This document shows, piece by piece, positions 3,613 through 50,256 of a DNA stretch of 64,000 bases (the stretch's first letter is position 1; each line of letters starts with the position of its first letter). The notes beneath the pieces are model-generated. The model was not told the origin of the DNA. It did no database searches and saw only the letters and a program-made list of their open reading frames with translations. The stretch comes from Opeltia flavorubescens (Eukaryota; Ascomycota; Lecanoromycetes; Teloschistales; Teloschistaceae), in contig AUPK01000175.1 in NCBI GenBank assembly GCA_000442125.1, forward strand, positions 186,001-250,000, read 5' to 3'. The position numbers and the translations under genes are program-made.

Positions 3613-5721
3613 ATGTCAGAGTTCTCGAGAGAGGACAAGTGCGTCTCAACAGAATCATTGTGTGACGAGTCTTCGAGCTCGAAAGCTACTAAGGATGCTG
3701 CGGCTTATGCTGAAAAACATGTTACCGAAGACCTTCATCCGGTATTTGCCGAGCCAGGAATCAAATACGATACAAGAGATGACTGTTTCGCCGCTGAATA
3801 CGACGAAGACTACGATGAAGCGGCCTTGATCGATAGCGAACAAGCCTTCAAGGTTGCTTTGGAGCAATTTCAGCAAGGAGTCAAACCCAAATACCAATCG
3901 CAGATTAACCTTCATGAAATCCAGTCATGGGACGATGTGATTCAACATGCTAACAAAGCTCGCGAGAAATACACAGGTGTAGACAAGAAAGGTATTGCGA
4001 AGAAGATCAATGATAGACTTCGGACCTTTCAAACCGCGGCACCGGCTATACAGGCATGGTTGAAACTTCTCCCATCGACTTCCACGTATGGATCAGTCGT
4101 ATGCGGTGGTTTGACCATCATATTGGAGGTATACTTCAAGGAGCTGAGGCGTGCCGCCATGGGAGCTTACTGGTAGCAGGCGGCAGTCCGACTCAGGCAG
4201 CTCCGTAAAGAGACGTTGAACGCGCTTGATCAAATACCATTGTGTATCGAGAAAGCGGAATTTTTCATGCGGACCTATGGTTATCCCCATGTTAATGAAC
4301 AAGTGGGAACACTCTATGTAGCCATAATCGAGGCTCTGCTCCATATCCTGGAGTGGTACAAACGGGCTGCAGGATGTGAGTATGTCGACTGTGTTCAATT
4401 TGATGAAATTAACCTTGCGACTCCTGGTAGTGAAATACAAAAGCTCTCTCTGGAGGGGTCCTGCTTACGAAGAGGAGATGAAAAAGAAGATGAAGAAAAT
4501 CGAGACAGCGTCACAAGCAATGAATGACCGAGCCGATGAGAGAAAGCAAGTCAGATTGAAAGAAATCAGAGATGCTACGGTGTACAGTAGGTTATCTCTT
4601 AGGAATGATTTAGATTCCAAGACTGAGAATTGTACCAGCAAAGGATCAGGTTGGAGAGTTGAAGATACTTGCCATCGAAGCACGCAATCATCTGTATGCT
4701 GTCTTAAAGGATACCGAGATTTTGCAAGAAGCCCTGCAGAGTAGGTGTCTGGTCCAGCTTCTTACATCACAAGGCTGAGCTATCTAGGCTGGAGGGAATC
4801 TAGAATAGCAAAAGAGGCTCGAAGGGCGAGTAGAGATCAGGCGGCCCTCGACCACGAAGGTAAGCAGAGGCAGTCCGCGATTGTGACCCTGCATGCTGAG
4901 AAGTGTACGAAGAGGCGAACAGAGCCGCGAAAGATTCACTTCTTGCGCAGCTGGCCTCTACTCATACCGATCCAACTCGTGATATGGAGATGGTGCTCGG
5001 TCATATCACTTCAATGACTCTCGGGGATCAAGACAGAGTAGAGGCGATAATCGAGAATCCAGTGATGGAAGACTGGCTACTGAATCCTCGCTTCGGAGGG
5101 CTACTGATCCATGGTAACGGTCGACGCCATGATGCCATCTCTCCGACATCAGTAGCATGCGCCTTGCTGGTCCACGTCTTTTCGAAAAAACTACAGTTCC
5201 CAACCCTGTACTGGTTCTGTGGGTTGCATAACTTCGGGCCTGGTGGGAATCCTTTAGGTATGCTGCGTAGTCTGATCTGCCAGCTTCTTCGTTTGCCCTG
5301 CTGTACATGCAGTGTGGATGATCAAAACGGGTTGGACGTACAGGACGTGAAGAAGCTCCTGAGGCTTTTCCAGAAATTACTCCGACAATCATCCGGCGGA
5401 TTTCCGATTGTCTGTGTTCTAGATGGTGTTTCGTTTTATGAGAGCAGACATCAAGCCGATAATATGACCAGGATCACAAGAGGTTTAGCAACCTTCGCAA
5501 GGTCCGACCCGTCAAAGCTGATCTTGTTACTGGCCAGCCCGATCAGGACGAGCCACATCTCACTTCAACCAGATACGGCTCGGTGTCTTACGGTTCTCGA
5601 GGCTTCAGACCATGTCAGTGGGGCCAAAGTGGGACTGAACAGTCGCCGCATCATGTCATTTACAGAGCAGAGGGTGAGAAGATTTTCGGAAAGCCTGACA
5701 GGTCGTAGGAACTCTAGATAG
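3613..5721 (+). CDS. Fungal STAND-like protein (N-terminal helical domain plus degenerate NTPase)
   Basis: A six-exon model joins in phase to 621 residues: 3613-4128, 4177-4375, 4431-4586, 4639-4740, 4788-4859 and 4901-5721. The TAG at 4174 that seems to end the first frame is the last three bases of a 48-base intron (GTATAC to GGTAG). Splicing restores LTIILE-QAAVRLR, which fits the family. Residues about 60-290 resemble the helical N-terminal region of fungal NACHT/STAND proteins (VYGSVVCGGL-type motif). The C-terminal half resembles their NTPase part (GLLIHGNG, then FCGLHN, then IVCVLDGVSFYE as a Walker-B-like strand), but no GxxxxGK[ST] loop is present. ATP hydrolysis is therefore doubtful. 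The piece around 4741-4800 is the least certain junction, because other frames there also read well. It may be a decaying receptor-like gene. No WD or ankyrin sensor is attached. Confidence 0.6.
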
Positions 5722-23627: not shown

Positions 23628-25468
23628 TCATACGATTTTCAGTTCACTAGTGAAGCCTTTCAGGTCCTCTATCAGCGGGCTCACAACGCCGTCCAACACA
23701 TGCTGTTGCACCTCTTCATTGTCCAGGGTAAGCTCTCTCACGTCAAAGGGCTGCGTCAAACATCTTCGTACAACATCACCGTACTGATAACCCATCTCTA
23801 GCTCGATGCGTCTGTGGAGTCTCTTTGCTGTCTCGAGTCTGGTGGCTGCTTCGTCGCCAACGATGTCTTCGGACCTCCTCATCTCTGCAAGGGTCCGCCC
23901 AAAACAAAGTTCGACAAGTGTAAGACCCAGAGCCTGAAGCGCCTCGCAGTGGCCCAGATATTTCTGAAGTTGCTGCGCTGGGGTCGTGGTGTTGTAGCAG
24001 CAAGGTTGCCACGTTAGGTAGGGATCCCAGTGATCCGTAGCCAGAGGGTCACTAACGCGCCGGTATAAGATTATGTCGCTGCTGCTCCAGTTGCCTTTTA
24101 GCCAAGAACTGCCGTCCAGTTGCAAAACGCTCGAAGCCAACGTGACAGCAATTTGGAGACGGTCTTTTCGGGAAAGAGCTGTACTGGTGATATCTTTCTG
24201 CGTTGTGAGTAGATCTTCTAAAGACTCAGACAGTGTCTGCGAAGCTGAGGTTGCGTCTGCTCGATAAAAATGATGCTTGTGTCTACCAAACTTTTCGTCG
24301 ATGAGAAAACCGATCGCCTTTTCACTCTGATTGGATGCACGTATGGCACTGCAGATGTTATCGATGCACTGCTGAATGGCTTCCGTTGTGCTATTCCCTG
24401 AATGGCCGCCCTGGTGCATCTCCGAGGCGAAGCTCACGCTTTTTACGGATCTCTTATTTGCGTTAGTTTTACTAGATGAATCTTCAGCAATAAGGTAAGG
24501 GTGGGCCTCCCGGGGCTCCAGGATAAATTTACCCTTTTTTAAGTGGCTGTGGATATTGAGTTGGCGCCATTGGATAAGCAGATGCTTGCTGCGCCGTCTC
24601 AATTTCTATTTCCTTCCAATCTGCCGTGTTAACTGAGTAACCGGGCTTCTCGGTCACGTTGACCCAAACACGGAAAAGGGTTTTCTTGGGCGTGTTCATC
24701 TCAGCTTTTGCCATGACCGATGGCCGGGCCTCCAAACGCAGGCTTGCCTTGTGATACCTTCTGCATTCACATCTCCATGCTTTCTCATTCATCAAGACGC
24801 GAAAGAGACTCTTCGCATGTTCTCTGATAAGTTTTAAATCGGTGATCGGACGCTTGGAACGGCGTTTACGCTTCGGCTCCATGGCAATATTTTCATGCGT
24901 AAAGTCTCTCAGGTCTTTATTGGCTCGGTCTATGTCGTCCAGAATGTGCTTATACACTCGTTCAGAAAAAGCCAACTTAAATCTCTTCATCTCTCGTTCG
25001 ATCGTAGAGTAGCTGTCCCATCTGATCTGGTGGTGGGTCAGCTTGCTGGTACAACACTGTCAGCATGCAAGCACTTACGGCGCCTGTAGAATCGATACCG
25101 AGCTTTTCACACATGCTTTGAGCTGTGTCAAGAATCGTTCGAACAATTATCAAGTATGACCGGTAGGACTGATCAAGCCGATCACGTAGCTTCTTGTCAT
25201 ACATAGGTTCACTCCACTTTGCACCTAAAGGCTCCAGGATCAGAAGCTCGTAATCCTCATCCGATGGGACAAGGTCAATCAACAGACTTTTCAATGTATC
25301 AGAGAAATAGGCGCTGGCGGTCTCTAATCTGGAAGCGTATTCCTCGAGCTTGAGCTTGTACCGCCTCCAGAGCTTGATGGTTTCTATGCCCTCAGCCATT
25401 TGCTTTAGGCCACCTACAAGGATCGGGAAGACTGCCAGTGCAATACCGGCGACTTCGATGCCGGACAT
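23628..25468 (-). CDS. DUF7580-type fungal protein
   Basis: Exons 25468-25079, 25041-24533 and 24471-23628 join in phase to 580 residues. The N-terminus (GIEVAGIALAVFPILVGGLKQM) is the amphipathic/hydrophobic helix typical of this large fungal family and is followed by helical bundles (IRWDSYSTIEREMKRFKLAF). The C-terminal 270 residues (SVKSVSFASE; LQIAVTLASSVLQL; CEALQALGLTLVELCFG; YGDVVRRCL) match the DUF7580 region, which resembles a degenerate kinase C-lobe. The first intron, 25042-25078, would be only 37 bases with an AAG acceptor, and a small frameshift is the alternative. The second intron (24472-24532) is ordinary. These proteins are expanded in filamentous fungi and often sit with heterokaryon-incompatibility-type genes. 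Function is unknown. Confidence 0.75.
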
Positions 25469-25854
25469 AACTACTTAAACGTTGTTTAGAGAATCAAATG
25501 ACGTGTTTGATAGACCATTTTGTGGCTGACGGACGGAGTAAAGCGCGCAGCGTTCTGATGAAGCATGAAGATGAATACGCTGTTCCAAGCCCCAGCGGCA
25601 ATCAAGGAATGCAAAGCTGGATGTTAGAGGGTGTGGTGGGGGATCATGCATCGGCAGCTGTGTTCGAAGGGTCATTGGCCGGTAATCATGCCCGACTACG
25701 TCCAGGACCATGCTGTCAAACCACACCCGGATACCGGCTTCTCAGCCAGCGATAGACAATCTTCGAGCCAGCCTTTCAACGATAAGCCTTCCGAGCACAC
25801 TTGCTTCAGTCACAATTTTCCATTCATCTCTCGCAATTAAGCCTACTTTTGCCC
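25469..25854. other. Divergent promoter region
   Basis: Short intergenic space between the DUF7580 gene (minus) and the zinc-finger/ULD gene (plus). Nothing coding is supported. Confidence 0.4.
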
Positions 25855-28359
25855 ATGGCTACGACAATTTCCTCATCCCTTGCCGCATGCCGAAAATCTT
25901 TCAATGAGCTGCTCGAGGAGTCCCAGCTTCTGCAAAAAGTACCTGAAGGACTAAATATCCAGGAGTGGAGCGATGAGCGTGGCCGGCTGCGATTGTGGGC
26001 CTCCAACATCGGTGCCCATCAGACTAGCCAATCATCTCTGGACTTCCGTCTCAGAGATTCTTCACATATCCAGGAGCAGATCGTCAAGCTCCTCGATGAT
26101 CTGATCCAGAGACTTCAAGATGCCCGAAAATTGCTAGCAGAGGGTGAAGACTCGGATGTTGAAAGTCTTGGAGAGAGCTCATCCGAAGGCGATACGACCC
26201 AGACTGAAATCCAGCAGCTGCGGCGAAACATAGCGACAATCATCAATTGCCTATTTGAGATGTCGATACTAGTGCGGAAGCCCGCTCGACATGATGTACG
26301 GATGGGAACTAAAGATACGGATCTTGGTAGCTATGAGTGGGCTGACATTCGTCATGTGAGAGATAAATTCCCGAAGATAGATGAAAGGCTTGCTTCCCGC
26401 CTTGGTCGAGCAATCACTCGAAGACGTAGATATCTTGGTTATCGGGAAAGACATGCTGCCAAGCTGAAACAGGGTATCGACAAAGAGAGCGAGCACGATG
26501 TGAACAATCCAGAACAAACTCAGTCTGGGATTCTCTCAGAAACCGTGGCAACTGATTTCCAAAATCTGAATATCAGGGATGAGGACAATGTGTCCGAGTC
26601 AGGCTTTACCCGAACTTCTTATGCGTCTTCCTTGATAAGCGGCAACCGCCTCACGATACCAGCTCCTCCCGAAAATTCACAGCATGGCGCGCCTTTTGAG
26701 TGTCCCTATTGCTTTTTCATCATAACGGCCAAAAATGCCAGATCATGGAACCGACACATCTTCAATGATCTTCTACCATATATCTGTATAGAGATTGAAT
26801 GCAAGACCCCGGATAAGCTATACGTCACAAGACACGAATGGACCTATCATTTACAAGAGGCACACGCTCAATATTCGCTTCGCGACAACTCAAGCCTAGA
26901 GAGTAAAATGCTTGACTGTAATCTTTGCGGCGACCCTCAGGAATCTCAGGAGCGCCTTCATCGCCATGTCGCTCGCCATCTACAAGAACTTGCTCTTTTC
27001 GTCCTTCCACGGAGCCAGGAAGAAACTGATGACGGTGGTAGCTCTGAAGAGAGAGACATTCTCCAGACAGCCAGATTTGGATCGGAAGGAGAAGCGTCAC
27101 TCGAGGCGGAACTCGTAGAGAAACGAGAACCTCTCCGGCCTGACGTAACGCTTGATCTTCCTCCATGGCTCAGTCTGTATATACAAGACCTTCGGAAGAT
27201 GTATCCTGACGACCGTTTTGAAGGCACGATGCGGCTCACACGTCTCAATACCTTCGTGTATGAGCCAGCAAGGATCGTTTATGAAGATCCCCTTTTGAAT
27301 ATCGACAATGTCTACGTCCCCTATATTGAATGTCTGGATTGTGGCAAAGCATACACGCAAGGGCCTGAGACGAGGGAGATAAAAATATTTAGGACGCATT
27401 TGAAGGATCGAATACATCGTGAGAGGGTAGATAGGAGACTGATGGAAGGTAGAGAGGAGATCACAGAAACCAGAACCTCAGTGATAAGTGATTCCGATGA
27501 CTCAATCGGTTCTGAAGACGACATGCCGACGGTTGAGCTCACGACAGTCCCTGCAAAATCAAAAGGTACAGGCGCACCTGCGAAGTCCCGCAAGACAATC
27601 CAAATATTCCCTCCAAGGGAGCGAAGGGAGGCCATTAGGGTCAAAGGCCCGCTCGGAAGGACATTTCTCTTTCCTTTCGACAGGTGCAGAATATGGTTAG
27701 TAAGTAGTATTCCTCTTTACCCGCTGAATGAGCGTAATGTAGATACTAATATAATTCTTTCGGCTAGAGAATGGAGCTCCTCCTTCGGCAGGAATATATG
27801 GAATCCGAAGCGCTCGTACCCCTTATCAGAAAGCGTCTCTATGATATGGTAGACCTCAATGGCGAGATTATTAATCCTCAAGATTGGGAGACTGCAGTCA
27901 AACCAGGCATGGTCGTTACGATGCGTATGCGGTCCCAGTCAGGAGCTCTACCAGATCAGACCGATCACGCGCGGGGTGCAATCGAGAATCAGCCTTCATT
28001 GAATAATCCCAATGCTGGGGTGAAAGACGCGCAGTATGAGAGCACGGAAAGGCAATCGATGCTTAAAGTTCAACCGGAGAGTCAAGGTCGATTAGCTGGG
28101 CTTGAGAGCGAGTCTTACATAAATAAATTCGCATTGGATGAGGATGTGATCTACAACGAGCCGCAGGGCAGGACTGGACGTTGTAAGGTGGATGAAAGTA
28201 AGTACTATACTTGCAATGAACGACGGTTAAGTCCGATAGCTGATACTCTTTGTCCTAGTCTTAGGCAATGGATTCTACATGCTCAGGCACAACGACGGGT
28301 CGAAAATTAGAGGAGTGTACTATGAAAGCCATCTAAGCAGGATCCCAAAGTCAACATAG
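25855..28359 (+). CDS. C2H2 (AcuF-type) zinc-finger protein with fungal ubiquitin-like domain
   Basis: Three exons (25855-27699, 27768-28197, 28259-28359) join in phase to 791 residues. The ATG at 25855 is used because the frame's earlier opening is TTG. The N-terminal 120 residues are a helical region found in many fungal receptor-like proteins. Around residues 280-390 paired Cys/His clusters (FECPYCFF then HIF; CIEIEC then HEWTYHLQEAH; CNLCG then HRHVARHLQELALFVLP) form the AcuF-like zinc-finger module. Around residues 595-680 IRVKGPLGRTFLFPFDRCRIW followed, after an intron, by MELLLRQEY and MVDLNGEIINPQDWE is the ULD_fung ubiquitin-like fold. A third exon adds LGNGFYMLRHND. No enzymatic motif is present. 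Probably a nuclear or signalling adaptor; partner unknown. Confidence 0.82.
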
Positions 28360-33833: not shown

Positions 33834-36299
33834 ATGTCGGATGAAAATGGGCGATCATTATCAACGGAAAGCTGTTACTTGCATGGTATCTTTCAACATC
33901 TGATATTTCAAAATCTTAGAGCTCCCTCTGAGAGGCCAGAGGATTTGTTACAGCATGAAGTCAACAAGCTTCACATTCAATCACAACTCGATACTTCCGT
34001 GCCGGCATGGTTTCTCGAGAATTGTGTCAAGACCGTCAAGGATCTAAATGAGTATAATGTACCCTTGCTTATTCGTGAAAATCGGCAACCAGCCAACCTT
34101 GAACAAGAATCCGGTGAGCCAGACACAACAGCATATGAGATTGATCCAGCAGTGTACGAGCCACTACGACAATTGCTCGGTCCCCAAATACCTGGTACGA
34201 CGGATGAGAACGGGCAGAGACCAGAATATATCCGATCTTTCTTGGCCAGTATTCCATCTCTGCATGCCACACGAAAACCAGGCAGACGGTGGATCCTATT
34301 TTCTCACCTCAGTGGTGCAATATTTCGCTAAAGCTGCTGGAGCTAATCTTGTAACGCTTGGTATCGATGATATGATTGATTTAGCAGTCCATTTTGGCCT
34401 CTCGAGGGATTCGCAGGCAGACTTGGGCAATAGCAGAGTACAGGCTACGAGAGAGCATGATGATATGTACATCAACAAAAACCATACCAGGCCACGTGAC
34501 AACGGTCCATGTATCGAAGAGGCAGAGGTAAGTGTCTCATCAATGAAACTATTATCTACTCTAATTGTGGACAGTTCTCTCAGCCAATGGTCTTCGCGTT
34601 GATTGAACTACTGCAATCATCACCAGGCATCAATTCAGAGGGATATCAGGTTGAGATAATTCCACACGACAAGTCTCCACTTATCATACATATAGCCCAA
34701 GTCACGAGTATCCTCAATGTCTTTGGTTATATTTTTGTTCAAGAGCTACAGAAAGCTCTCCTCAGCATCACTCCTAACAGCCTCATCATTTCAACCTCGG
34801 CAGGCGACAAATCTCCCGACAATTCTGATACGCATGCGCTGGAGCAAGTCTATCTTGGAAAAAACAGGCCGCAGGTTCACAGGCACCATAGGCAGCGCTC
34901 GCTGTCGCGGAACAGCCTCCTTGACCAAAGAAATGTGGATACCAACTTGGATTTGATCTGTATAATCCCAAATAGTAACCGCACGCAACGGCGCTTGTTC
35001 AACAAGCATCGAGAAATCGGGGAATCCTATAAGCATCACAACATTAGATTGCTACAGAGGCTGTTGAGACAATCATTTGCAGAGTTGACTGGCTCATCGC
35101 TTGTCCAACCATACACTGACTGGGCTTTTCTGGAAGGAACACCAGCCAATGAAAGGCTTGCAAAGAAGGCACTTGATGAGGCCGGGCTTAATGAAATTCT
35201 CTGCAGTCTTCGATGCGGACTGAGCAAGGAAGACTCAAGGAATCGAGATACGGTAGAAGAACAAACGGCGGAAGCGAAAATAAAAGCGGGTATCCTAAAC
35301 TTTGGGCGCAGAAAGAAAGCGGTCGATGATTGGTACGACAAAACCAAAGACGAATCCCGTTGGTCAGATTTCCCACCCCACGTCCAAAATACGATCAGGA
35401 AAATCGAAAATGATGATTCTCTCGAGTGGGAACGGCGATTCTTAGAACTCCTGATCAATCCCAATGACGTGGAAGAAGGGTGGTCCGACATTGCATTGGA
35501 ACCTGATATCAAAGACTCCATACAAAAAACCATCGACCAGCCAACCCAAACCGATAAACGCTCTTACGGAATACTGAAGCGCGGTCGCATCGGTGGTGCT
35601 CTCTTATATGGTCCTCCCGGCACGGGAAAGACACATCTAGCTCGTGTCCTAGCGCGAGAGTCAAAGACCATCACTATTTGTGTCTCCGCGGCACAGATTG
35701 AGGACAAATATGTTGGCGAAGCTGAAAAGGCAATCCAGGGACTCTTCAATCTTGCACACATGCTCTCGCCCTGTACGATCTTTCTCGATGAGGCAGATGC
35801 CTTGCTCCGCTCCCGCAGCTCTGATGATAGGAGCTGGGAGAGAAGTCGTGTTAATCAACTGTTACATGAGATGGACGGTTTCAAGAAGTCGGAGTCCTCG
35901 CCGTTTGTCATCCTTGCGACGAATCTCCCAAATGATTTGGATCCGGCGGTACTGCGTCGTGTACCGGCTCGTATTCATATTGGACTTCCATCTTTTGAGC
36001 TACGGAAGGATATATTTCAGATTTCGCTTAAAGAGGAGATTTTGCATACGGACGTTGATCTAGACCATCTGGCAAGAAGGTCGGAGGGGTATTCTGGCTC
36101 GGATATTCAGACGGTTTGTGTTCAGGCTGCTTTGCTCTGCGATACTTTTGTTGGCGAGGATGAGAAGAGGTGTTTGAGGAATGTGCATTTTGAGAAGGCG
36201 ATGAGGAGATGCGCGCCTACTGTGTCGCGGGGTGCGCTGGATAGGATTGAGGGGTTTTCTAGGGAGTATGATCCTGCTGCACTCGAACGTGGGGTTTGA
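33834..36299 (+). CDS. Msp1/ATAD1-like AAA ATPase
   Basis: Exons 33834-34194, 34250-34527 and 34575-36299 join in phase to 787 residues. The splices restore HENQADGGSYFLTS, GIDDMIDLAVHF and EAE-FSQPMVFALIELL, all typical of this fungal subfamily. The AAA domain occupies about residues 490-780: GPPGTGKTHLA (Walker A, residue about 559), CTIFLDEADALL (Walker B, about 614), ILATNLPNDLDPAVLRR (sensor 1 and arginine finger) and RIHIGLP, the meiotic-clade signature seen in Msp1/ATAD1. The long N-terminal region lacks a clear membrane helix, unlike yeast Msp1. The close relatives known from filamentous fungi are predicted mitochondrial or peroxisomal quality-control ATPases that extract proteins. 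The first intron has a moderate donor (GTACGA). Confidence 0.85.
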
Positions 36300-44723: not shown

Positions 44724-46269
44724 TTATCGTATGACTCTTGACCACCAATTTCGTACCACAGCCACAACAGAAATACTAGAAGGTAAATGCATGAACAGAA
44801 AGACCAGGAAACACAAAGGGATCGAGACAGCAAAGTAGAGTCCGAAAAGTCTACCTCCGGGCGCGATGTGATCGTTCATACTGAAAAGGCCCGATACGAA
44901 AGTCAAGGGTATGAAACTCAGAGCCAAGTAGGTCAGGCGTGAGATGTTCACTGTCTCCGTCAATGACCTTCTACAGTCGATCGTCTGGACTAGGGAGGTA
45001 GCGGTAGCTACCAAAGCTTCCAGTCGGTGGCCATAGGTATCGATGTCTTGCGCTATATGCTGGTAATCTTCGAGCAACTCGGTGGCGTGGTCGGCATGGT
45101 CCGCAATCTTCGTACAATAATCCAGGTACTCGATAACATGCCGAATTTTATTCTTTGACGAGATGCGGCGGCGGGCCCATTGGTTGAGAGCATGGATATC
45201 TGCGCTCAGGACGTCGATCTGTTCGACGGCAGCAAGAGCTGTGTTCGAGGAGTATTCGTATTTTTTGACGCTGTGATACATCAGCTCAACGTACACGAGC
45301 CATTCGGCGGCGATCATCCTTAACGGATAGGATGATAATGATAGGAGACTTGGGCTTTGCTTGTCAAAGCCTGGGGCATTCTTGATTCCCCAAAGGGAAA
45401 TTAGAGATTCTAGCGGAGATGACTTTACGAGGCTAAAGTCTGGTGCGACCAATTCACGGAGTATTGGAGTCGCGATGAAATCTTGAAAGCCTCCTTTAAA
45501 GAGCCGTGTCTGGAGTTTGCATGATCTCATGAAGCCATCGATACTAGGTCTTGATTGGTAAGAGTTACTGATAGGAGGGTCGATAAGTATCAGTCCTGGT
45601 CGAATGTAAGAGGGAATTATCTGTGATGCATTGTTCGTAGATGAATGATTATTCACCAAGCCAAAGCCCATCTTTGCTCTGCGTTTTCAAGATTGAACAA
45701 CAATGCCGTGCAATGCCGATATCGACCCCCTTAAGTCGGGGTAAGATTGCAACCTTCCGTGGCACATTCATATCCCGCAACAACCCATCTTTATTCAGTA
45801 GATCTTCGAGTCGTAATTCGAGACAGCGGTGATAAGGCAGATTTAAAAAGTTTTGTGATCTCGCTGTAGACGGCAGCACTGATGCCCAAGGCCTCATGGC
45901 AGTGATATCCTCTTGGAAAGTGTCGATGTGAGACGCAAAAAACAATGGGTTGATCTTTAGCAAGCAGCCAAGGGTCTTGATAATTTCACTGGATAAATCC
46001 TCAACGATCAAAAGTCGGCCGCGTATGTTGCCTGTCCCCTCGGCCTTGTCATTGAGCAATGATATGAGATCAGTGAGAGCGAGGTTCCGGCGGCGTAAGG
46101 GCTTGTCTGTAGAGGAGAACTCCAGACAGGCGACGCGACAGGCATATTGGCTATTTTTGTGGGTTCGAAGAAATGTAACGAGATTTTGGAGGCATGTATT
46201 CCCTTGGGCTCGCGCGGCGACGGAGGATTCATATGAGCAGCCTTGTTCCAGGCCACTTGTGTTGTTCAT
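44724..46269 (-). CDS. CorA-like divalent cation transporter
   Basis: Exons 46269-45657 and 45595-44724 join in phase to 494 residues. The splice makes DGLWL-GLILIDPP, as in relatives. The N-terminal cytosolic part has RLLIVEDLSSEIIKTLGCLLKINPLFFASHIDTF. A long helix-rich region follows, then the two C-terminal membrane segments characteristic of CorA: LTYLALSFIPLTFVSGLF, ending in SMN (the family's GMN loop with Ser instead of Gly), and LYFAVSIPLCFLVFLFMHL. Family members carry Mg and similar ions across membranes as pentamers. The GMN loop is the selectivity filter, and the Gly-to-Ser form is frequent in this fungal branch, where transport is unproved. Confidence 0.85.
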
Positions 46270-46692: not shown

Positions 46693-49600
46693 ATGGGAGC
46701 TATATCCGATTTTGTCGCGACCTTCAGTTGTGACTATGATAAGTATCTAGAGGTAGAAAAGGAAGTCAAGACAATTTGTGAAGATGCACTACGCGGTATC
46801 CAATTCCTGTGGCAATCCCGGGTGAAGGCTGTAGAGTCGTTGGAAAAGAAGTTGAACGATCGCAATGGTAGCTACAAAGACGAGCTCGATAATGTCGCTG
46901 ATATCGTGGACCTTGTTGGCGGTAGAATCATACTGGCAGACTCGCGCGATCTTGGACGTGTCGGCGAGGTGATAAAAGATAGGTTTCATTTAAGATGTCA
47001 AGTCCAGCATCCAAAGCCCGGACAAAAGTCTCTTCAATCGCAATCACGATTCCGCGGTTATGATGGATATCATTACCAGGTGACTCGCAAAATCGACAAG
47101 TACCATGGTTCTTTTGATCCTGTCATCGAGATCCAAGTGATGACTGCTTTCATGTGGGCGTATGCTACGGTAGCTCATGATATCGAGTACAAGCAATTAC
47201 AGGGTCAGCCTACTGACGGTCTGGCCATGGCTCTCGAAAATCTTAAAGGCATTTCAAATCTCGGAGAGATAGGTCTCGACATGTTCAATATGCAAATCCT
47301 CAACGAGACGATGATATCATCTCAACAAAGGAATCTTGCCATGAACTTGCCGAGTGCGATTCAGGTGGTAGAAACTCGGATCACAAACGAGCAGCCGCTT
47401 GCTACGCAGTATACATCTCTCAAGGAGCCTACAGACCACCGACTTAAAGTCAAGGCCAACGAAGAAGCGACGCTTCATTTTCGACATCAGTTCACAGAAA
47501 GTCTTGCCTACCCTGAGATCTTTGCACGGGGAGAGAGTATCGTACGGGCACATGACGGAACTTGTCGCTGGATATTCGGTCCACCCCGTGAAGGAGACGA
47601 TGAACAGTCGATGCCAAAGAGCTCTAGTGCTAGCCTGCGATCTCAAGATGATGAAGAGGCCCAGTGTGCAAGTGAAATACAGTCATCATCAGCAGACTCC
47701 AGCGATAGTGACCAATTGGAAGAGGACAATGCACAGTCAAAGTCAACGAGTTTCAACGCTAGCTTGCAATTTCAAAATGAGGAAGCCGGGAATGGAAATG
47801 ATACCCAGTCGATACCAGCAGACTCGAGTGATAGAGACCTATCCGAAGTTGAAGTTCATCTCATAGAGCTACCCTGGTCGAATTTTAAGCATTGGCTGAT
47901 GGGAGAGGGTAAAGACCCTTATTGGTTAAGCGGTAAGCCAGGATCGGGTAAATCCACACTCATGAAATATATTTCAACCGAATTCAGCACATTTTGTCGT
48001 TCAGATGAGGAGCTTTCAGCATGGAGTGATGCTGTTATCTGCTCCCACTTTTTCTGGAACCTCGGTACATCAATGCAGAAAGACTACGCTGGGCTATTGC
48101 GATCCCTTTTGTTTCAGATCGCCGAGCAGAAGCCAGATATGATTGCGGTAATGAATGATCCATACAATCGTACGGAGCCAAGCGACCGACTCCTCCACGG
48201 TCCTCCGACGATACACACATGGACAGAACATCGCCTCGAAAGTGCTTTAAGGCGAGTTATCGATACCAAGCCACCTTTGATGCGCGTATGCATGTTCATC
48301 GACGGTTTGGATGAGTACGAGGGAGACGAAGACCGCCTCATAGATATCATCAACCTTATTAGTCACTCTTCGGGTACCAAGATCTGTGCGTCAAGCCGTC
48401 CCGAGGAGATCTTCCGGCAAGGCTTTGCCGAAAGTCCGAAATTGAGACTCCAAGATCTTAATTACCCTGATATCTACAAGGCGACCGTGGAGCAACTTTC
48501 TCCGGTTCTCGAAGCACATGTACCTGCTCTGGAAAAAGTGCGCAAATATTTGATAGATGGAGTGGTAGCGAAATCGCAAGGCATTTTCCTATGGGCTCAC
48601 TTGATGACGAAAGAGCTCAAGAGAGGAGCCAGAAACGCAGATACCATCGGAGAACTTGAAAGAAGACTAGAGCGCGTACCCGAGACCATTGATGGTTTGT
48701 ATGAACACATGCTGAGTCGTCTGGATAAAGCTTATCTCCGTGATGCCTCGAGGTACTTCCAACACCTGCTAGCTATCCAAGGTTACGAGCTTCAACCGAC
48801 TGTATTAGATTTTGCCTGCGTTGAAGAAAGTGTACCGAACTTTCAAGCATTCATGGATCCTGTAATGCTACAAGCTTCAATTACCGTTCAAGTATGTCAG
48901 CGCGTCGAAACCCGCATCCTGAGCCGTTGTGCAGGACTGGTGGAGATAGACGAACATGCCATGGAAGACGCGCCACACTTGATGAGATTCCCCCCGCTGA
49001 ATCATGGTGGTCACGAGAAGATCAACTTACCAAACCAAGGGTTAGCGTACTTTATTCGCAAAGTCAGGTTCATTCATAGAAGTGCTTCAGAGTTCTTGCG
49101 ATGCCATACAAACTTCTTCGAAGAACCGAATTGGCAAATCGAAGGGGCGCTCAGAGCAGTATGTGCACAGATCGCATACGCAAAATTGCTACCATCAATT
49201 CTATCTGAGCATTCATCCAAAAACCAAGGACCGACAATACTAACGGCATCATTCCTGTATGACTCGTTAAAAGCCTCAAAGCCAGACGATGGATGCCGTC
49301 AAGTAACGCGTGAGGTTAGCGACCGGATAGTCGACGAGACCTACAAACTTATTGGCTATCTTTGTACGGCTCTCAACGATATAAATTGCGGCGTCTCAAG
49401 CGCCTACGCAGGATACACGGATGGATCGTATGCCAAGTCTATAGATCATCTTCATCCATTTTACAATCCCCTGGGTTTCGCCACATATTTTGGTCGCCAG
49501 GACTATGTGGCCCGGAAATTGGCGAATAGCACTTACCCTCCGCAAGACATTGAGTATATTCTCCATTGTGCAATCATCGCTGTTGATGAAATAGTTTTGT

Positions 49601-50256
49601 TCCGACGCGAGCTTGGTGTCATTGATATTTTACTAGACCATCTTCCCCGATCAAAAGGCAGCACCATTATGATCTCGAATGGAGCTTCTAGTGAAAATAT
49701 CACTCAAGTGTCGAAATGGGCTGAATTTGCACGCAGATACTTCCGTAACTTCCTTTACGTAGGGGACATTCAGAGAGGAATCAATCCTCGTTTTAGTGAC
49801 TTGATAGAAACTTTCTTCACTCTTGATTCGAACGCGGACCCGAACATAATTATTACATATAATGTACGACTCGAGTTGAAGGACATATTTCTGAACCTCG
49901 CTTTCCAGGATACTATTTTGGCAATCCTGGAAAGCTTTCTCTCAAGAAACCTCGGTGTAATCGTCGAAATTGCAGAAAATGTCATGAGAATCTTGAAAGA
50001 TTATGGCGGTACAAGCCGCCGCAGAATTCTTTCTGCTACATATCGGCGTACGGATGACCACCGGGAGACTGGCAGAGAAATTTGGTTCACTGATGAGCAA
50101 TCATATCGCTTACAAAGTGTTTTTCCTCTAAGTTCTCCCGTGTTCTTTCTATCCGAAAGCGAATTTGGCCTACTTACAGCCCCTCGATCAGAGCCGGTAG
50201 TAGCCGAAGAAATCGTGCTTAGAATTGAAGAATGGGCTCGGTCTAGTGGCGATTAA
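46693..50256 (+). CDS. NACHT NLR-like receptor with N-terminal RelA/SpoT nucleotidyltransferase domain
   Basis: A single exon of 1187 residues. Residues about 25-165 carry the RelA/SpoT synthetase-like pattern: SRVKAVESLEKKL, VADIVDLVGGRIIL with the metal-type Asp, RGYDGYHYQV in place of GYRSLHT, and EIQVMTAFMWAYATVAHDIEYK with the catalytic-type Glu of EIQ and the trailing His. Residues about 300-390 form a Ser/Asp/Glu-rich linker made of two tandem copies. The NACHT NTPase follows: WLSGKPGSGKST (Walker A, about 413), CMFIDGLDEYEG (Walker B, about 533), ICASSRPEEIF (sensor) and FIHRSASEFL. The last 350 residues have no recognisable ankyrin, WD or TPR repeats. By analogy with NLRs, ligand sensing would release the N-terminal enzyme, which would make an alarmone or modify RNA with pyrophosphate. 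That output is inference. Complete frame, no signal peptide, so cytosolic. Confidence 0.88.
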   Translation: MGAISDFVATFSCDYDKYLEVEKEVKTICEDALRGIQFLWQSRVKAVESLEKKLNDRNGSYKDELDNVADIVDLVGGRIILADSRDLGRVGEVIKDRFHLRCQVQHPKPGQKSLQSQSRFRGYDGYHYQVTRKIDKYHGSFDPVIEIQVMTAFMWAYATVAHDIEYKQLQGQPTDGLAMALENLKGISNLGEIGLDMFNMQILNETMISSQQRNLAMNLPSAIQVVETRITNEQPLATQYTSLKEPTDHRLKVKANEEATLHFRHQFTESLAYPEIFARGESIVRAHDGTCRWIFGPPREGDDEQSMPKSSSASLRSQDDEEAQCASEIQSSSADSSDSDQLEEDNAQSKSTSFNASLQFQNEEAGNGNDTQSIPADSSDRDLSEVEVHLIELPWSNFKHWLMGEGKDPYWLSGKPGSGKSTLMKYISTEFSTFCRSDEELSAWSDAVICSHFFWNLGTSMQKDYAGLLRSLLFQIAEQKPDMIAVMNDPYNRTEPSDRLLHGPPTIHTWTEHRLESALRRVIDTKPPLMRVCMFIDGLDEYEGDEDRLIDIINLISHSSGTKICASSRPEEIFRQGFAESPKLRLQDLNYPDIYKATVEQLSPVLEAHVPALEKVRKYLIDGVVAKSQGIFLWAHLMTKELKRGARNADTIGELERRLERVPETIDGLYEHMLSRLDKAYLRDASRYFQHLLAIQGYELQPTVLDFACVEESVPNFQAFMDPVMLQASITVQVCQRVETRILSRCAGLVEIDEHAMEDAPHLMRFPPLNHGGHEKINLPNQGLAYFIRKVRFIHRSASEFLRCHTNFFEEPNWQIEGALRAVCAQIAYAKLLPSILSEHSSKNQGPTILTASFLYDSLKASKPDDGCRQVTREVSDRIVDETYKLIGYLCTALNDINCGVSSAYAGYTDGSYAKSIDHLHPFYNPLGFATYFGRQDYVARKLANSTYPPQDIEYILHCAIIAVDEIVLFRRELGVIDILLDHLPRSKGSTIMISNGASSENITQVSKWAEFARRYFRNFLYVGDIQRGINPRFSDLIETFFTLDSNADPNIIITYNVRLELKDIFLNLAFQDTILAILESFLSRNLGVIVEIAENVMRILKDYGGTSRRRILSATYRRTDDHRETGREIWFTDEQSYRLQSVFPLSSPVFFLSESEFGLLTAPRSEPVVAEEIVLRIEEWARSSGD

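Follow-up and report, generated by a model that had tools for sequence, protein, structure and literature searches.

A RelA_SpoT-NACHT receptor gene of Opeltia flavorubescens with an intact predicted pyrophosphotransferase site on a DUF7791-type receptor backbone

Introduction

Fungal NOD-like receptors (NLRs) with a RelA_SpoT domain ahead of a NACHT domain have appeared in surveys since 2012, and the architecture as such is already known. NWD5 of Podospora was described with a RelSpo-type N-terminus (PMC3321046, 2012), nwd5 was tabulated as RelA_SpoT-NACHT-WD and as 3.6-fold up-regulated in incompatibility (PMC3689799 Table 3, 2013), and RelA_SpoT was placed among 12 N-terminal classes with the putative function 'ppGpp synthesis' (PMC4986451 Table 1, 2014). 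Podospora has one REL-SPO receptor, whose tabulated expression rises in incompatibility but in neither of the two confrontations with bacteria (PMC4835503, 2016). The class has been termed minor yet intriguing (PMC10197012, 2023), and in Sordariales 14 T-NACHT receptors make up 82% of the RelA_SpoT-bearing ones (PMC12258605, 2025). Divergent synthetases had been noted earlier in Aspergillus and Gibberella, with no RelA/SpoT homologue (RSH) hydrolase found in the carrier fungi (PMC3153485, 2011). The receptor gene analysed here lies at 46693–50256 on the forward strand of a 64,000-nucleotide stretch of Opeltia flavorubescens DNA (the window, to which all coordinates refer unless stated; positions 186001–250000 of contig AUPK01000175.1, here C23, in a genome of 34.4 Mb and 23 contigs). 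It joins a synthetase-like domain with an intact predicted active site to the backbone of another receptor lineage.

A sequence-only reading had proposed a NACHT receptor with an alarmone-synthetase-like effector, and had noted that surveys of fungal NLRs list RelA_SpoT, which they do (PMC4986451 Table 1, PMC3689799 Table 3, PMC3321046, PMC12258605). The literature matches listed, all from open-licence PubMed Central papers, include no report in which a fungal receptor of the RelA_SpoT type was assayed.

A synthetase-like domain in front of a NACHT NTPase

The gene is a single open frame of 1187 amino acids, running from an ATG at 46693 to a TAA at 50254–50256 with no in-frame stop and no intron, in agreement with the uninterrupted frame read earlier. 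The chance of a stop-free run of this length is about 3e-29 at the local base composition, and the start codon is consistent with the family, Met being at position 1 in 58 of the 59 aligned rows. The synthetase (SYNTH) module comprises residues 1–205 (46693–47307), which are predicted to take the synthetase fold, and includes Pfam RelA_SpoT (PF04607) at residues 42–168 (46816–47196; 50.3 bits, cut-off 27). This is the only RelA_SpoT match in the whole genome, where NPHP3_N has 50 matches, counted as exons and not as genes.

Behind this effector stands a NACHT-type NTPase (residues 396–569, 47878–48399), matched by NPHP3_N at 80.3 bits, above its cut-off, with the Pfam NACHT model itself slightly under (24.4 vs 26.7). 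A Walker A motif, GKPGSGKS, starts at residue 414 and a Walker B motif, MFIDGLDE, at residue 534, so that the canonical NACHT NTPase of the sequence-only reading is upheld, in the layout of a fungal NLR of the STAND type (signal transduction ATPases with numerous domains). The predicted acidic linker is likewise present as a Ser/acidic segment (residues 300–395, 47590–47877) with 25% Asp plus Glu and 22% Ser; it carries two 72-nucleotide copies (47651–47722 and 47777–47848), 126 nucleotides apart and 71% identical, and may have grown through duplication of a 42-residue unit.

The predicted active site and its conservation

Homologue searches kept 59 of 1734 candidates among receptor-length proteins and 26 of 232 among short ones. 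The alignment has 85 rows including the query (pairwise identity 30–100%, median 56%) and leaves out P0002. That entry, the same protein lengthened by three residues, has the window itself as its listed source and adds no independent support. Residues were paired with RelQ from a printed alignment, and with FaRel2 and RelP by motif and spacing. FaRel2 R64, K66, S70, K74, D90, R95, Y128, E145 and Q147 (PMC11782079) and Staphylococcus aureus RelP R78, K80, S84, K88, D107, R112, Y151, E174 and H190 (PMC5794853) make contacts to ATP, magnesium and the acceptor base. By this comparison, R43, K45, S49 and K53 (46819–46851) would form the site for ATP, the pyrophosphate donor, D73 would bind Mg2+ and R78 would stack against the adenine (46909–46926), and E146 would bind the metal and H162 the ribose, with Q148 in the same segment (47128–47178). 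The acceptor-side G-loop RFRGYDGYH (residues 119–127, 47047–47073) holds Y123. All these segments are on the forward strand.

The ten residues R43, K45, S49, K53, D73, R78, Y123, E146, Q148 and H162 are all present in 81 of the 85 rows, the four exceptions being three short predictions with gaps and one K45T substitution. All ten fall within the 30 of 200 columns in which at least 98% of rows share a single residue (P 1e-9), as do H106, P107, R119, R121 and D163. Met occupies the position of M150 in 79 rows, and Asp that of D124 in 67. The ATP-site Arg/Lys/Ser/Lys set, the catalytic Asp and Glu and the acceptor Tyr are thus in place, and the Asp, Glu and His landmarks pointed out earlier correspond to D73, E146 and H162. 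Where the sequence-only reading had named a missing profile match, another fold, or loss of the metal and Glu residues in homologues as grounds for abandoning a RelA/SpoT-type effector, we find a match, the expected predicted fold, and retention. The donor half of the predicted reaction is well supported by this conservation.

The domain might instead be a pseudo-enzyme that does not catalyse and whose fold is retained as an adaptor for binding nucleotides or for oligomerisation. Two altered positions would fit such a role, those of R117 and N148, which relay pppGpp feedback in RelQ (PMC5794853), as would the lack of an assay among the literature matches listed. Intact donor, metal and acceptor-base residues in nearly all rows, at identities reaching down to 30%, argue against it, and we regard it as improbable. 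A phosphorylated nucleotide as acceptor would be in keeping with Y123 and the two flanking residues R119 and R121 (Arg in 82 of the 85 rows, with gaps in the remaining three); a tRNA enzyme would likewise be in keeping with the GYDG loop and with the immune setting.

Bacterial relatives and the choice of acceptor

Searched by tblastn with residues 1–200, plasmid sequences yielded 12 records, led by an Azospirillum protein (E 1e-11, 97% of the query), and phage sequences 14, with 5e-6 as the best E value. With the Azospirillum domain as query, a genome scan across prokaryotes found 106 loci; the 80 retained belong to Pseudomonadota, Bacteroidota, Bacillota, Actinomycetota and others. From the domain start onward, 78 of the 84 frames measured (the 80 loci plus four plasmid ones) extend for 400–500 residues. 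In this widespread bacterial sister family (L029 and L033–L112) the G-loop usually reads GYWA (Trp in 75 and Ala in 79 of 80 rows), and Ala and Ser follow EIQV. Where the fungal receptor has S49 of the ATP site, all 80 rows have Arg or Lys, and where it has W155, all have His. No NACHT domain, nor any family besides RelA_SpoT, scored above cut-off in the eight members scanned; one of them, L042:5001-6257, has a C-terminal HepT-like match slightly under cut-off (22.7 vs 23.5 bits).

The tree comprises 41 rows (15 of the 85 fungal, 12 of the 81 sister-family, four RelP/Q-like, CapRel, four long RSH and five others). With rows picked by similarity, some long branches and a midpoint root, the fungal rows form one group (100/98) that adjoins the bacterial sister family plus one more Rhizobium row (98/96). 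A clade of fungal and RelP/Q rows was rejected by the approximately unbiased test (p-AU 0.00766, with four RelP/Q-like rows), and the NCBIfam equivalog for that family (YjbM) gave 38.3 bits, below its cut-off of 320.

These relationships bear on the view that the domain transfers pyrophosphate to tRNA, as do the toxic small alarmone synthetases (toxSAS) FaRel2 and CapRel, and would stop translation by capping the tRNA CCA end. Donor residues and acceptor Tyr are shared with FaRel2 (PMC11782079), the GYDGxH loop is nearer to GYSGIH of CapRel than to GYRSYH of RelQ, and CapRel is an abortive anti-phage effector coupled to a sensor (PMC9712102). Grouping of the fungal rows with CapRel was rejected, however (p-AU 0.00815, with CapRel represented by one row whose branch is very long), and R119 and R121 beside Y123 would suit a phosphate-rich nucleotide pocket. 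We consider a tRNA acceptor unlikely, though still a serious candidate; it is a special case of the synthetase-effector proposal developed below, and its share is counted within the figure given there.

Two further plasmid proteins with this domain were noted. The Rhizobium rhizogenes protein L032:3785-7717 (1310 amino acids) combines RelA_SpoT with a C-terminal poly-gamma-glutamate hydrolase domain, and lies near VapC-type toxin-antitoxin and integrase genes; a Sphingobium protein (L119:1378-3381), whose annotation extends past the stretch analysed (23768-26755 in the record, about 995 codons), has an N-terminal synthetase domain.

A receptor assembled from two families

The two parts of the protein have different relatives. 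At E <=1, residues 1–200 match all 58 other receptor-length RelA_SpoT proteins and all 26 short ones, and none of 46 DUF7791 receptors. Residues 660–810, which span the DUF7791 domain (residues 677–803, 48721–49101, above the Pfam cut-off), match 46 of 46 DUF7791 receptors and, among RelA_SpoT proteins, give one weak match (E 0.5). Residues 810–1187 match 38 of the 46 and no RelA_SpoT protein, and the top-scoring NACHT match has 70% identity in the DUF7791 lineage vs 26% among RelA_SpoT receptors. By these similarities, residues 1–200 and the remainder are assigned to two receptor families. The boundary lies in a junction segment (residues 206–300, 47308–47592), of which the part 226–300 resembles the DUF7791 lineage and not other RelA_SpoT receptors: at E < 1e-3 it matches 35 of 46 DUF7791 receptors, none of the 58 other RelA_SpoT receptors, and one of the 26 short RelA_SpoT proteins. 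In the latter, P0061 of Letrouitia leprolyta, this junction follows the RelA_SpoT domain just as it does here (51% over 72 amino acids), and the protein therefore seems to share the swap. So unusual an origin from two receptor families might point to an assembly or gene-model artefact, but the single intron-free frame and the same junction in P0061 make this hardly credible.

DUF7791 occurs at at least six places in the genome. A hidden Markov model (HMM) was built from 13 fronts among the 46 relatives. Of the five other places, four (on C13, C2, C17 and C14) have open reading frames (ORFs) that it matches just upstream or in the same frame, introns not being modelled; the fifth, at 98 kb of C23, has a different front. 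The C14 front scores above the cut-off of PF17111 (35.1 vs 27.2 bits) and slightly below that of SesA; PF17111 is Helo_like_N in PMC9815663, and is named PigL_N in the Pfam release used. The same front-HMM matches only two of eight PF17111 loci, and the HeLo-like tie of the C13, C2 and C17 fronts consequently depends on chaining. One receptor chassis thus carries an enzyme domain here and HeLo-like-related fronts elsewhere. A comparable case is described for Gaeumannomyces, in which HELO-LIKE and RELA_SPOT NACHT pairs are tabulated at 83.6% (PMC4986451).

Proposed mechanism

The gene, its domains, the predicted fold, the intact donor, metal and acceptor-base residues and the modular swap with another effector class are the foundation of our proposal; activity, acceptor, activation and outcome are put forward conditionally. 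The protein would be a cytosolic NLR in which the sensing of a non-self or danger cue falls to the C-terminal part. The NACHT NTPase, as expected from its family, would switch and oligomerise, and so activate the N-terminal synthetase domain, which would move pyrophosphate from ATP to the 3' hydroxyl of an acceptor. A purine nucleotide is the most likely acceptor, with about half of the weight, and the tRNA CCA end would take about a third. The product, or loss of ATP or of usable tRNA, would then arrest or kill the hyphal compartment. That the receptor signals or kills through nucleotide pyrophosphorylation, as the sequence-only reading suggested, is plausible, and we give the whole proposal a probability of about 0.6.

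Several points weigh against it. D124, M150 and W155 depart from RelQ R117, R143 and N148, and acceptor handling may differ accordingly from that of RelQ. The nearest bacterial relatives are without known function, and an acceptor can therefore not be transferred from them. The link to death is drawn by analogy, via a swapped effector whose HeLo-like nature is partly supported. No HD_4-type hydrolase was found in the genome by an exon-by-exon search limited to one Pfam family; if a dedicated HD_4 hydrolase is indeed lacking, an alarmone might persist, which would be consistent with a one-shot signal for arrest or death. Since D124 and W155 replace the RelQ residues that relay feedback, we infer that control by pppGpp was lost and that the receptor took it over.

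A product aimed at bacteria or other lichen partners, an idea found in PMC4986451, would suit a domain of bacterial type, and several named matches come from lichen-forming fungi. The protein opens directly with the enzyme domain, however, and as a large NACHT receptor would be expected in the cytosol, and the expression of the Podospora REL-SPO receptor (PMC4835503) follows incompatibility and not the bacterial confrontations; a target outside the fungal cell is accordingly very improbable.

If the domain is active, as the synthetase-effector proposal holds, a eukaryotic immune receptor would have bacterial-style pyrophosphorylation as its output, tying fungal cell-death receptors to bacterial abortive-defence enzymes. 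More tentatively, and with somewhat less than even odds in our judgement, the fungal RelA_SpoT receptors may all belong to one branch of eukaryotic pyrophosphotransferases, related to a little-known bacterial synthetase family. They would use their own nucleotide or RNA acceptor and act as one-shot immune effectors, interchangeable with HeLo-like domains on a common receptor chassis. Alarmone-type chemistry would then be an output of eukaryotic innate immunity. The gene is a compact test case, with an effector of about 205 residues, an intact predicted site and a natural HeLo-like-related swap in the same genome.

C-terminal tail and genomic setting

The tail (residues 804–1187, 49102–50253) is presumed to be the ligand-sensing part. 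A Pfam scan of these 384 residues matched no family, and thus no WD, ANK, TPR or HEAT repeats; in the predicted model of a relative the tail is partly helical. Among named proteins, one of Letrouitia leprolyta, a lichen former, comes nearest to the receptor (76% identity); the named relatives are ascomycetes.

Contig C23 has 262,349 bases and ends, at 262349, in a (TTAGGG)n array; the 3' end of the gene is about 26 kb from this array, a subtelomeric position. About 1 kb upstream, on the opposite strand, is a CorA-like Mg2+ transporter domain (PF01544, E 1.1e-9; 44724-45671, -). Elsewhere in the window are a DUF7025 protein (PF22942; 832-2469, -), an AAA ATPase (PF00004 with a lid domain; 34509-36299, +), and a 272-amino-acid ORF (4903-5721, +) with a weak second NPHP3_N match at 5041-5532 (29.3 bits, above cut-off), possibly another NACHT-type gene or a remnant.

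Comparison with known systems

As for NWD5 and the fungal RelA_SpoT class in general, the receptor is an ascomycete protein with RelA_SpoT at the N-terminus followed by NACHT, but its C-terminal end consists of DUF7791 and an unnamed tail from a different receptor lineage, in place of the WD repeats of NWD5. Within the genome, C14, C13, C2 and C17 carry other receptors with the NACHT-DUF7791 backbone, and the front upstream of it is HeLo-like-related instead of an enzyme. RelP and RelQ do not form one clade with the fungal domain and are homotetramers (PMC5794853), whereas the fungal domain is fused to a receptor and has replaced RelQ R117, R143 and N148. The bacterial sister family has likewise replaced the two Arg of RelQ that follow the G-loop Tyr and EIQ-x, and it too has HDxxYK; it differs by the lack of NACHT in the members scanned and by its residues at the S49 and W155 positions. 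FaRel2, which is absent from the tree, has the same donor, metal and acceptor-Tyr residues. CapRel resembles the fungal receptor in combining an enzyme and a non-self sensor in one chain, although it does not form one clade with the fungal domains and senses via a pseudo zinc finger in place of an NTPase.
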